The notes beneath the pieces were generated by a model. That model ran no database searches. It was given only the letters and a program-made list of their open reading frames with translations, and was not told the DNA's origin. A program made the position numbers and the translations under genes. This document shows, piece after piece, positions 3,184 to 9,094 of a stretch of DNA of 9,649 bases (within the stretch, counting starts at the first letter, position 1; each line of letters opens with the position of its first letter). Source of the DNA: Phycisphaerae bacterium (GTDB lineage Bacteria; Planctomycetota; Phycisphaerae; Tepidisphaerales; Tepidisphaeraceae); assembly GCA_014380825.1 (NCBI GenBank), contig JACMJD010000648.1, positions 1-9,649 on the forward strand. The letters are read 5' to 3'.

Positions 3184-4590
3184 GTGTCAGGACCCCCACA
3201 AGGCTATCGCGACATCCCCGAAGAAGACCGTCGCAAGGCGAAGCAATTCTACGACCGCGGCGCGACCATCGCCGCCACGGGCAACTACGAATACGCCATC
3301 GAAATGTATCTGCAAGGGTTGGCGCTCGATGCGGAATCGATCGAAGCACACCAGGCGCTGCGCGACATCAGCATGAAGCGAAAAGCCAGTGGCGGGAAAA
3401 AGCTCGGCATGATGGACTCGATGAAGCTCCCGCGCGCGAAGGACGACAAGCAGAAGATCCTGAACGCCGAAAAGCAGCTCGCCTACGACCCGGGCAACAC
3501 CGACCACATGCTCGCCGTCATGGAGCCGGCGGCGAAATTTGGCTATTACGACACGGTCATGTGGATGGGCCCGATCCTTCTGAAGGCGAACAACGACGGA
3601 AAAAAAGAGCTGAGTAAGTTCCAGGCGCTGAAGGACATCTACGTCAAGCTGCACCAATGGAAGCGCGCCACCGAGGCCGCGCAGTATGCGCTGTCGGTCA
3701 AGCCTGAAGACATGGACATGCAGCGCGAGGTGAAAGATCTCGCCGCGCGTCAGACCATGGACGAAGGCAACTACGAGAAGAGCGAAAGCTTCCGCGGCAG
3801 CATCCGCGACATGGAAGGCCAGCAAAAGCTCATGCGCTCGGACACCGACGTCCGCACCGAAGATCAGATGGGCGGCATGATCCGCGAAGCCGAAGCCGAG
3901 CTGGCGGCGGAGCCGAACGAGCCGGGCAAGCTCTTGAAGCTGGTTGATCTGCTGGTGAAGACCGACAATCCCGAACACGAAAATCACGCGATCGATCTGC
4001 TCGAAACGGCGTTCCAGCGGACCAAGCAGTTCCGATATCGGTTACGCGTGGGCGAAATTCGCATGCGCCAGCTCAGCCGCATGGAGCGATCGCTTCTACA
4101 GCGCGCAAAAGCCAATCCAGCGGATAAGACGATGCTCGCCGAATACGCGCAGTTCCGGAAGGAACGGTCGCAAGAAGAGCTGAACGAATACACGCTGGCA
4201 GCGGAGAACTATCCGACGCAGCTTGAGTACCAATTCCAGATGGCCAAACGCATGTTCGATCTGGAACAGTTCGGCGAAGCGATTCCCGTGTTCCAGAAAG
4301 CTCGCCAGGATCCGAAATATCGCGTCGATGCGACCGTGATGCTCGGCCGCGCGTTCCTCGAGGCTGGTTTTTCGGACGAAGCGGTCGATACGTTTAAGGG
4401 CGCAATCGACGATTACCAGTTGAAGGGCGACGAGAAGAGCATCGAAATGACTTACTGGTACGGCCGATCGCTCGAAGAAAAGGGCGAAAAGCCGCTGGCC
4501 GCCAAGGCGTACAGCCAGGTCGCACAGTGGAACTTCAACTACCGCGACACGCAGGTCCGGATCAAGAAGATGCGCGAGAAGCCGCAGTAG
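3184..4590 (+). CDS. TPR-repeat protein of unknown function
   Basis: This is a 468-residue soluble, strongly charged, almost wholly alpha-helical protein with no signal peptide or membrane segment. A TPR unit is clear at about 19-52 (AKQFYDRGATIAATGNYEYA onward). Further helical pairs follow, and two or three better TPR-like units lie at about 347-460, including MAKRMFDLEQFGEAIPVFQK and LGRAFLEAGFSDEAVDTF. Between them is a Lys/Arg/Glu-rich stretch with degenerate repeats. TPR arrays hold protein partners, so a scaffold or assembly role is likely, but no partner can be named. I chose the GTG at 3184 because AGGAAG lies eight bases upstream and because the earlier in-frame residues from the ATG at 3034 are low in TPR character and overlap the apparent promoter. 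I associate this protein type with planctomycetes from general knowledge only. A long palindrome starts at its stop codon. Confidence 0.8.
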   Translation: MSGPPQGYRDIPEEDRRKAKQFYDRGATIAATGNYEYAIEMYLQGLALDAESIEAHQALRDISMKRKASGGKKLGMMDSMKLPRAKDDKQKILNAEKQLAYDPGNTDHMLAVMEPAAKFGYYDTVMWMGPILLKANNDGKKELSKFQALKDIYVKLHQWKRATEAAQYALSVKPEDMDMQREVKDLAARQTMDEGNYEKSESFRGSIRDMEGQQKLMRSDTDVRTEDQMGGMIREAEAELAAEPNEPGKLLKLVDLLVKTDNPEHENHAIDLLETAFQRTKQFRYRLRVGEIRMRQLSRMERSLLQRAKANPADKTMLAEYAQFRKERSQEELNEYTLAAENYPTQLEYQFQMAKRMFDLEQFGEAIPVFQKARQDPKYRVDATVMLGRAFLEAGFSDEAVDTFKGAIDDYQLKGDEKSIEMTYWYGRSLEEKGEKPLAAKAYSQVAQWNFNYRDTQVRIKKMREKPQ

Positions 4591-4667
4591 AGAGGGTAGA
4601 GGGTAGAGGTCAGAGGTTAGGAAGAGCCGAATTCTCTTCCGTCCTGACCTCTACCCTCTGACCTCTC
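4590..4667. repeat. Purine-rich/pyrimidine-rich palindrome after the TPR-protein gene
   Basis: The left arm (4590-4626) is built from GAGGGTAGAGG and GGTCAGAGG units and ends in GGAAGAG. The right arm (4634-4667) is its near reverse complement (CTCTTCC, then CCTGACCTCTACCCTCTGAC). The loop is only seven bases. The element begins on the last base of the TAG stop codon. It would fold into a stem of roughly 34 bp with a few bulges and could block read-through, but no U-run follows. All purines lie on one strand of each arm, which is unusual for an ordinary terminator. Confidence 0.8.
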
Positions 4668-4674
4668 CCGATAC

Positions 4675-7050: not shown

Positions 7051-8196
7051 ATGCCAACCACGCAGTTAGACATTCTCGCGCTCGAACCGTTTTACGGCGG
7101 GGCACGCCGCGTCATGCTCGAGTCGCTGATCAAGTGCAGCCGGCATCGCTGGACGCTTCTCAAACTTCCGCCACGCCGAATCGAACGACGATTGATCGCC
7201 GCCGCCCATTGGTTCGCGGAGCAACTTTCCCGACACTGGGCGGGGCGGTGCGATATCCTGTTTACCAGCGAGGCGATGAACCTGGCGGATCTGTATCGCC
7301 TGGTTCCCGCGCTCACCAAGCAGCCGTCCGTCGTTTATTTTCATGGCAATCAGTTGCCCGATCCGAACGCGACGACCGAGTCGGCGCTGGATCTGGTCAA
7401 CCTGAACACCGCGGCCGCGGCGACGGAGATCTGGTTTAACTCGATGTTTCACCTGCGCAGCTTCCTCGCAAAGGCGACGGCGCTGGTCCGAAAGCATCCG
7501 GAATTATCGGCACAGAATCCGATGCCCGAAATTGCCGGCAAGGCGCAGCTCATGTCGCCGCCGGTCGATCTGCGCCATCTGAATGACCTCATGCGCAGCT
7601 CGCAGGTAAAGCGCGAAAAGCGGACGATCTTCTGCGAGACCCGCGACGCCGATCGCGATCTATTGAACAGGGCCCTTTCGACGCTCATGCGTCGCGGCGA
7701 ACATTTCAAACTGATCACGATCGGAAATCTGGACGGCGTCAGCGAAGAGCTGCCGCGCGAAACATTGTCCGAAAACGACGACACGGCCCAGCTTCAGGCG
7801 ATGCTTCGCGCGGGCGTGTTCATGAGCGTGAAAGTCGCCGCGCCGAACGATCACCACGCCGTCCGCGCCCTGGCGGCCGGTTGTTTTCCGATGATGCCCA
7901 ACACGGGCGTGTACCGCGAATTACTCCCGGAGATGCTTCACCCAGCCTGCCTGTACAACGGCGAGCCGGACCAGCTCGCCGGCCGAATGCAGGATGTCTG
8001 GCACCTGGAGCGCCCGCAAGGCTACAACGAACAGCTCGGCACGATCCTGCGGAAATTCGATCCCGTCGTCGCGTGTGCCGCGATCGACCAGCGGCTTGAA
8101 GATCTGGTCACGTCGCGGCTGATGCAGGCCGAGTTGAGTTCGATGAGCAGCAACACGGCGAGCGGAAATGCGACGCAGAAAACCAACCGCGGATAA
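7051..8196 (+). CDS. GT-B glycosyltransferase of the DUF3524 / queuosine-tRNA mannosyltransferase-like family, with degenerate active-site motifs
   Basis: This is a 381-residue soluble protein. The N-terminal half matches, as I recall it, the DUF3524 domain of human GTDC1/QTMAN, which mannosylates queuosine in tRNA(Asp): LALEPFYGGARR (9-20), then FTSEAMNLADL, VVYFHGNQLPDP with His98, and EIWFNSMFHLRSFL. The C-terminal half is the nucleotide-sugar side (FKLITIGNLDGV; ALAAGCFPMMPNTGVYRELLPE around 272-292). Several hallmark residues differ. The family's FHENQL reads FHGNQL, the EHDK segment reads TRDADRD, and the two glutamates of the EX7E motif (HEFFGxAxxEA in QTMAN) align to Pro and Arg in APNDHHAVRALAAG. 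The fold is therefore well supported but mannosyl transfer is not. It may use another donor or be inactive. A TTG at 7009 could add 14 residues; ATG 7051 is preferred because the conserved domain begins just after it. It probably has its own promoter. Confidence 0.82.
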   Translation: MPTTQLDILALEPFYGGARRVMLESLIKCSRHRWTLLKLPPRRIERRLIAAAHWFAEQLSRHWAGRCDILFTSEAMNLADLYRLVPALTKQPSVVYFHGNQLPDPNATTESALDLVNLNTAAAATEIWFNSMFHLRSFLAKATALVRKHPELSAQNPMPEIAGKAQLMSPPVDLRHLNDLMRSSQVKREKRTIFCETRDADRDLLNRALSTLMRRGEHFKLITIGNLDGVSEELPRETLSENDDTAQLQAMLRAGVFMSVKVAAPNDHHAVRALAAGCFPMMPNTGVYRELLPEMLHPACLYNGEPDQLAGRMQDVWHLERPQGYNEQLGTILRKFDPVVACAAIDQRLEDLVTSRLMQAELSSMSSNTASGNATQKTNRG

Positions 8197-8427
8197 CCCG
8201 TCGACCGCAAATTCAACACGCCGCCCCTGAGCGTACCCGCGAAGGGTCGGATCGTCTTGTCGAGTCACCACCACGACGAAGACCAGCGGTCCGAAGTCCG
8301 CGGCTCTAAAAATCACCCGTGTCTACCGAGTGAATCTGGAGACTCTGCGCCCCCACGTCCGATAATCAGTGTTATGTTAAGTTCGATGGCGGTGGGAAAG
8401 TTTGATGCTGGAGGATGCTTCAACACA

Positions 8428-8546
8428 GGCAGGTGCGGGAATTGAACCCGCTCCGGTTCAGAGTGCTTGGACTACCCGTCCACGCACACATTGCCGCCGG
8501 GGTTTGTCCAGATGGACCCCGGGCCTTACCGTTCGGCCAACCTGCC
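8428..8546 (-). tRNA. Atypical tRNA-like gene with an oversized anticodon loop and 43-nt variable arm; identity unresolved
   Basis: Numbering runs from 8546 on the minus strand. GGCAGGT (1-7) pairs perfectly with ACCTGCC (113-119), giving a 7-bp acceptor stem. U8 is present. A D-arm follows (GCC 10-12 / GGC 22-24, loop with GAACGGTAA). The T-arm is GCGGG / CCCGC (96-100 / 108-112) with loop TTCAATT, a perfect TTCRANY loop. Where the anticodon arm belongs, CCGGGGT / ACCCCGG (25-31 / 44-50) encloses a 12-nt loop, CCATCTGGACAA, with no standard U33-xxx-R37 setting. Residues 51-93 form a variable arm: CGG/CCG, a 6x6 internal loop, then GTGC/GCAC, a G-A mismatch and TGGAC/GTCCA closed by GGGTA. 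Total length is 119 nt against about 75-95 for tRNAs. No CCA is encoded; the next base is U. The parts are too regular for chance, but it may be a non-decoding tRNA-like RNA or a decayed serine/leucine-type tRNA. Confidence 0.6.
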
Positions 8547-8564
8547 ACCAACGTGACACGGACA

Positions 8565-8570
8565 ATTGTA
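8565..8570 (-). promoter_or_regulatory. -10 box for the tRNA-like RNA
   Basis: On the minus strand TACAAT (8570-8565) matches the -10 consensus at five of six bases and lies 18 bases before the first acceptor-stem base. Transcription starting about seven bases downstream would give an 11-nt leader before the structured RNA. A clear -35 is not visible. Confidence 0.4.
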
Positions 8571-8643
8571 CATCTGGCGTTGACGTTCCCGCCGGCTCGG
8601 CTCTCGTGTGAGCATGCCCAAGTGGAAGTCGGTGGACGCCCGC

Positions 8644-8720
8644 TCATCCTGAGCAACGCAAAGGATCTCGGCGGCGGGATGGTTTCCGGCTACCGAGATC
8701 CTTGACTGCGTTCAGGATGA
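8644..8720. repeat. Palindromic intergenic repeat, copy 2 (CATCCTGAGC type)
   Basis: The left arm (8644-8671, starting TCATCCTGAGCAACGC) and the reverse complement of the right arm (8693-8720, starting TCATCCTGAACGCAGTC) share their outer and inner parts, including AAGGATCTCGG, around a 21-base loop. It is the same family as 2372-2451 although 6.2 kb away, with C/T differences that keep base pairing within each copy. It sits between the tRNA-like gene and the downstream end of the small-protein operon. Confidence 0.85.
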
Positions 8721-8765
8721 CAGACTGCGATGATCCGTGCGGCAATATTAACGAAAGATCAGTCA

Positions 8766-9038
8766 TCAATCGTGGAACAGATCGAGCACCGGCTTCAAGT
8801 CGCGCAGGCGAATCTGTCGTGCGGCGGCTTCCCAGGTGAAGACAGCCATCTGGCCCGTTCGGTTGTCGCAGATATAGAGCGCCTCGCCGCCCAGGGAGAT
8901 GCGCGAGGTGACCAGGGTGAAGTCGCGTTCCTTGAACGCCATATCCGCCTGCGCCGTCCGAATCGGCATGAGGTTCGCCAGGAACAGGACCAGCGCGGTG
9001 ACCGTTAGAATTCCGATTCCGTAAGTTTTCTTATCCAT
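8766..9038 (-). CDS. Small exported protein, 90 residues, unknown function
   Basis: I do not recognise a named family. Residues 1-31 form a signal peptide or membrane anchor: MDKKTYGIGILTVTALVLFL, then ANLMPIRTAQA with a possible cleavage site after AQA (29-31). The remaining 59 residues look beta-rich: FTLVTSRISLGGEALYICD, then NRTGQMAVFTWEAA and a C-terminal LRDLKPVLDLF. The segment ALYICDNRTGQMAVFTW resembles VVYILDTTNGVMTAATY of the upstream neighbour, in the same position relative to the C-terminus. The start at 9038 was chosen because the signal sequence begins there and GAGG lies six bases upstream; an in-frame ATG at 9098 would bury the signal sequence. It lies 56 bp after the neighbour's stop, probably in one operon. 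Confidence 0.72.
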   Translation of the reverse strand: MDKKTYGIGILTVTALVLFLANLMPIRTAQADMAFKERDFTLVTSRISLGGEALYICDNRTGQMAVFTWEAAARQIRLRDLKPVLDLFHD

Positions 9039-9094
9039 GATTGGCCTCGTCGAATTAATGATGAGTTTGAAAAAGGGTGATCGCATCGCGGAAT

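Follow-up and report, generated by a model that had tools for sequence, protein, structure and literature searches.

The window analysed here is a stretch of 9,649 nt from a contig of a Phycisphaerae bacterium (Tepidisphaeraceae), and its minus strand raises the question of what a gene can be when it keeps the elbow of a tRNA and carries abnormal arms in its inner half. The reading that we prefer, with roughly even confidence, is that the element is a non-decoding irregular tRNA or a relic of one, foreign and probably of the serine type, which a mobile element may have brought beside a dif-like site.

Structure of the Element and Its Place in the tRNA Family

The irregular tRNA-like gene occupies positions 8427..8546 and is read on the minus strand from 8546 to 8427 (120 nt counting the discriminator U73 at 8427; RNA position p is window coordinate 8547-p); CCA is not encoded. 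Its tRNA domain is more than chance: in the Rfam search that the first-pass annotation had proposed, run on 261 bases, the tRNA model RF00005 matched the minus strand with 37.3 bits against a cut-off of 29 (E 1.3e-6), and the match includes the letters of the T-loop and the D-loop. A search of the whole window listed at the element only the tRNA-Sec model RF01852, with 26.7 bits against a cut-off of 47.

The annotation's description, a tRNA-like elbow of normal form joined to an abnormal inner half, was borne out in both parts. The acceptor stem, in both sequence and fold, joins GGCAGGT (8540..8546) to ACCTGCC (8428..8434) in 7/7 pairs. The D-arm, GGCC GAACGGTAA GGCC (8522..8538), is canonical in sequence and predicted fold, holds the GG of the D-loop, and has a motif that also occurs in tRNAs of viral contigs. 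The T-arm, GCGGG TTCAATT CCCGC (8435..8451), is perfectly paired and is covered by RF00005.

The two remaining arms, both claimed earlier, are also present. At the place of the anticodon arm, the predicted fold has a helix of 5 bp (CGGGG/CCCCG) with a 14-nt loop (8498..8521), or alternatively 7 bp with a 12-nt loop when bases 8522 and 8497 on either side are taken in; the outermost pair of the 7-bp form takes a base that the predicted fold joins to G9, and an inner TCC/GGA pairing is predicted inside the arm. The variable arm of 43 nt (8454..8496) is predicted to pair as CGG/CCG, an internal loop, and GTGC-TGGAC / GTCCA-GCAC around a GGGTA loop. A canonical decoding tRNA has a 5-bp anticodon stem, a 7-nt loop, and a readable anticodon, whereas the loop here is 12-14 nt. 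Ordinary decoding is therefore unlikely, because the loop fits no normal frame. ARAGORN, another proposed check, called 0 tRNAs in the window.

Several known families were considered and rejected. For tRNA-Sec, RF01852 stayed below its cut-off, the element has 7+5 bp rather than a 13-bp acceptor and T domain, and its anticodon-place loop contains no UCA. The selC* tRNA-Cys and allo-tRNA types have an 8/4 or 9/3 arrangement; that of the element is 7/5, with U8 and C65 unable to pair. YrlA (RF02553) was absent among the family-model matches to E 10.

Folding Relative to Chance, Strand, and Promoter

The inner pairing beats chance only mildly. The whole molecule folded with z -2.77 (2/200 shuffles equally good), the inner 70 nt with z -1.95 (78/2000), the variable arm with z -2.15 (62/2000; stretch folded 8452-8497), and the anticodon-place arm with z -1.45 (161/2000). 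At the anticodon place, a perfect 5-bp helix arose in 16% of the shuffles and a 6-bp helix in 3.9%. The reverse (+) strand of the element folded better (z -4.28, 0/200 shuffles equally good), so energy cannot pick the strand, and the choice of strand rests on the RF00005 covariance model.

A -10-like box, TACAAT (8565-8570, minus strand), ends 18 nt before G1, with no recognisable -35. Its spacing had been called right for a tRNA gene, and the comparison agrees: 18/23 TATAAT-like hexamers (no more than one mismatch) sit 9-21 nt before G1 in 45 tRNA entries, which come from fetched loci that partly overlap, with some tRNAs repeated and two tRNA arrays omitted. A promoter consensus scan found none on the minus strand and one promoter-like match on the plus strand (8337-8366).

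Gene Neighbourhood and a dif-Like Site

Among nine ORFs of the window that were tested, Pfam recognised fmt, def, a TPR protein, ribosomal S20, GlyRS, a QTMAN (tRNA-queuosine mannosyltransferase) homologue, and a glycosyl hydrolase of family 31; two small ORFs (sp1 and sp2) belonged to no Pfam family, and none of the nine was a phage gene. The GlyRS shares 74% identity with its counterpart in a Humisphaera MAG, which makes the source organism Tepidisphaerales-like. The block is rich in tRNA-related genes (fmt, GlyRS, and QTMAN) and is partly common to relatives. L127 retains these neighbours, with about 90 bp between the dif-like site and sp1 where the window has 383 bp.

A sequence of dif form, ACGTCCGATAATCAGTGTTATGTTAAGT (11+6+11; 8355-8382, plus strand), lies 44 bp from the element and recurs in relatives. 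In 11 relatives it lies downstream of QTMAN with 0-2 mismatches; two of these (L127 and L140) had been used in drawing the dif-like pattern, and in L140 its orientation relative to QTMAN is opposite. Elsewhere in the 1.79 Mb searched, no match had fewer than 6 mismatches. Among 150 class genomes, the site occurred with at most two mismatches in 61 (one copy in 58, two copies in 3), and the reversed-pattern control gave 1 match in all. The 11+6+11 form has a right half, TTATGTTAAGT, that we take to be that of dif by comparison with E. coli. Judged by its form, 8355-8382 is probably the chromosome dimer resolution site dif. GC skew around the site on one 7.19-Mb chromosome gave a noisy signal that lends no further support. 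In G015 the site and QTMAN are 1.7 Mb apart, so they are not invariably adjacent.

dif is a target of mobile elements that use Xer, and such an element may have delivered a tRNA-derived gene to this place. No good second dif copy was found in the window, where a single match with 3 mismatches stood at chance level. Of 64 places where the site was found, 30 loci were examined, and these contained no element-like sequence; two held ordinary tRNAs. The dif-like site is useful in itself, given that a published dif survey predicted no dif in the one planctomycete tried (PMC3025954).

Searches for Homologues

A homologue of the odd inner half turned up in none of the places searched: 26 genomes of the order, 397 of the class, and 392 of the phylum (sets that overlap), 21 syntenic loci, and viral loci fetched by pattern. 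The absence of homologues is likely, within searches that are lossy: a 31.6-bit tRNA-Cys of G007 was missed by the order search with the model of the element (R1), and in the class and phylum sets scoring covered no more than nine candidates from each genome among the matches listed. In the order genomes, R1 retrieved one tRNA-Leu (35.1 bits) and 13 others below 23 bits, one of which overlapped a tRNA-Met. Five matches of 25.0 to 28.6 bits were obtained in the class genomes, including the locus L120, and four in the phylum genomes, of which three were ordinary tRNAs and the fourth (L295) was no tRNA by ARAGORN. The remaining R1 matches look like chance. None of the 21 QTMAN loci scored above 16.1 bits, in flanks of at most 1500 bp that were shorter at contig ends (51 bp in L134). 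The first-pass annotation had raised a regulatory or aminoacyl-donor role, and by the refuting condition that the annotation itself had set, this reading was weakened when the lossy search of related genomes returned no homologue.

The locus L120 (1501-1607, G166) is itself an odd tRNA-like sequence whose acceptor and T-arm pair well, with an anticodon stem that looks bulged and no ARAGORN call; its arms are unlike those of the window element. Another such sequence, 106 nt long (L351, 8165-8270), lies within a run of tRNAs on a viral contig and has a tRNA acceptor and T-arm, also with no ARAGORN call.

Phage and plasmid records matched short pieces only, with a best E of 0.3; this match aligned the T-arm with tRNA genes of Streptomyces phages (two tRNA-Ser and one tRNA-OTHER). 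Three other patterns gave 0 matches in viral contigs. Among the papers listed as matches, covered by their titles and abstract openings and with subscription papers mostly outside, no such element was described for planctomycetes.

Origin of the Outer Half

The exact D-arm, TTGGCCGANNGGTAAGGC, occurred in 0/397 class genomes and in 66 viral stretches (58 ARAGORN tRNAs and 8 not), figures that allow no comparison of rates, since the viral collection is far larger than the 397 genomes and the motif is rare in viruses too. With at most 3 mismatches, it was found at 18 places in 16 of the class genomes, against 22 for the reversed control, and the best R1 score at these places was 23.1 bits. The 56 distinct viral tRNAs with this D-arm, which had been fetched for holding the motif, comprised 44 Ser, 3 His, 3 Cys, 2 Gly, 2 Tyr, and 2 Thr.

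The closest viral tRNA to the outer half is a tRNA-Ser(gct) of L321 (score 78, U73); a viral tRNA-Gly scored 72 and a viral tRNA-Cys, also of L321, scored 66, both with U73. In the tRNA-Ser(gct) of L298 (IMG/VR), 22/25 of the first and 21/27 of the last bases are identical to those of the element, the 20 bases GGTTGGCCGAACGGTAAGGC are shared unchanged, and the T-arm is near-identical. The viral tRNAs-Ser share the D-arm motif, the 9-nt D-loop, and the pairs G1-C72 and G2-C71 with the element, and U73 appears in L321 and L303. On the other hand, they are called by ARAGORN, have normal anticodons and lengths of about 84-94 nt, and end in CCA where it is encoded. Viral tRNAs without the motif (570) were no nearer to the element than 127 cellular tRNAs (p 0.91), and the nearest among 123 distinct tRNAs of bacterial loci was a tRNA-Ser of an array, with a score of 62.

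The suggestion of a serine-type tRNA therefore stood in part: the viral D-arm was Ser in 44/56 and the best outer-half match was a viral tRNA-Ser, whereas the GGA triplet on which the suggestion had been based gives no support. A tRNA-Ser has a long (type II) variable arm, and the paired 43-nt arm is of this kind, exceeding the usual length. A tRNA-Ser also has G73, where the element has U73; viral tRNAs called Ser with U73 exist (L321 and L303). By these sequence resemblances, the outer half is probably Ser-type, a D-arm non-native to the class is fairly supported, and viral origin is to be taken as a lead.

Other origins were less successful. The acceptor ends, U73, and the 5' half of the element resemble an array tRNA-Cys of G007 (score 47-49), which was the one match of a tRNA-Cys pattern search, and the viral tRNA-Cys of L321; a Cys-type origin is less favoured, since the viral tRNA-Ser and tRNA-Gly outscore the viral tRNA-Cys. 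Descent from the tRNA arrays of relatives was unsupported (45 array against 78 other distinct tRNAs, p 0.60), as was a tidy tRNA split by one insertion, where 212/2345 single deletions were called as tRNA against 83-921 in 10 shuffled controls.

The arrays are of note as loci. A contig of G007 (C25; L176, 4237-10715) contains 29 ARAGORN tRNAs in a row, their labels covering all 20 amino acids; this run encloses an EF-Tu-like gene (7888-9090, minus strand) and lies beside a YrlA match of 38.9 bits, under the cut-off of 69; a second run, in L177, has 16 tRNAs.

Likeness to Known Systems

Several described RNAs resemble the element in part. Allo-tRNAs and irregular tRNAs of soil bacteria, as reviewed (PMC7609411), are likewise Ser-like, with a long variable arm and a non-standard inner half; some are suspected of linkage to mobile elements, and some are unusable in E. 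coli translation. The allo-tRNAs are 8/4 or 9/3, whereas the element combines 7/5 with an expanded anticodon loop. According to the same review, selC* tRNA-Cys shares U73, a long variable arm, and a lengthened anticodon stem with the element, but has an 8/4 arrangement, a bulged A51a, and a GCA or UCA anticodon, none of which is seen here. The tRNA-Other pseudo-tRNA of Bacillus cereus, likened by its published description (PMC3399842), is a tRNA-shaped gene with no role in translation; unlike the element, it has a Trp anticodon and sits within a longer regulatory RNA.

Interpretation and Rival Explanations

If the element is a non-decoding irregular tRNA or a relic, the TACAAT box would give a transcript predicted to fold with a normal elbow, and tRNA-processing enzymes may cut this RNA, which may then receive CCA. 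Both steps are plausible because the elbow is intact, and the expanded anticodon and variable arms would leave it no ordinary adaptor role. Charging by SerRS is possible in principle, since SerRS recognises the variable arm. In the review, however, G73 is named for SerRS recognition (PMC7609411) and the element has U73, so that we prefer this reading to that of a selected non-decoding RNA, bound or charged through its normal elbow as a regulator, decoy, or aminoacyl donor. The selected RNA, a possibility to which we give clearly less weight, agrees with intact acceptor, D-, and T-arms, with a -10 box at a tRNA-like distance, with the z values of the inner arms (-1.95) and the variable arm (-2.15), and with tRNA-related neighbours (fmt, GlyRS, and QTMAN); it also has a precedent in the Bacillus cereus pseudo-tRNA, whose deletion gives a phenotype (PMC3399842). 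However, no homologue was found in the searched genomes and loci, hence no covariation; relatives share the tRNA-related neighbours, yet no element was found there; and the variable arm is far beyond the usual length, beside the U73 that departs from the G73 of the review (PMC7609411). In the preferred reading a conserved function is presumed to be lacking, although all outer helices are intact and the inner hairpins pair somewhat beyond chance, which a decaying relic need not show. A foreign Ser-type origin, for its part, has against it the viral tRNA-Gly and tRNA-Cys scores near the best Ser score, a window with no phage gene among the nine ORFs tested, and no good second dif.

The other explanations are weaker still. 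That the element decodes through an unusual anticodon arm, for example with a Ser GGA read from CUGGA, is improbable: CUGGA does stand in the loop and most viral tRNAs with this D-arm are Ser, but the loop of 12-14 nt has no 7-nt frame, the predicted TCC/GGA pairing closes it, and ARAGORN makes no call. Even less credible is a functional RNA on the plus strand of which the tRNA likeness would be a mirror, a proposal consistent with the better fold of that strand and with its promoter-like match, because RF00005 matches the minus strand including the T-loop and D-loop letters, and the promoter-like match shares bases with the dif-like site, in which ATAAT is conserved on other grounds. Chance pairing without tRNA descent, which would agree with an inner half that is weak against shuffles, is the least credible of all, being nearly refuted by the RF00005 score and set against ends closely like those of a viral tRNA-Ser.

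A bolder form of the foreign-origin reading, which we regard as speculative and rather doubtful, is that a virus-derived Ser-type tRNA was kept by the host beside dif, with two arms rebuilt as recognition hairpins and the elbow feeding the processing and charging machinery; this would be a new kind of non-decoding RNA of tRNA shape. If expressed, the element would offer a natural experiment on how much of the molecule processing, CCA addition, and charging require in the absence of the decoding half, and possibly an instance in which a captured virus-type tRNA was remodelled. If it is a relic, it warns that tRNA-shaped genes recognised by eye need homologues before functions are claimed for them; non-canonical tRNA genes are described as a trap in another paper (PMC9897764).

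Finally, the window contains long imperfect palindromes between genes (8644-8720, 2368-2455, and 4589-4668). The first two have a AGGATCTCG / AGGGATCTCG core in common and resemble hairpins of the REP or terminator type.
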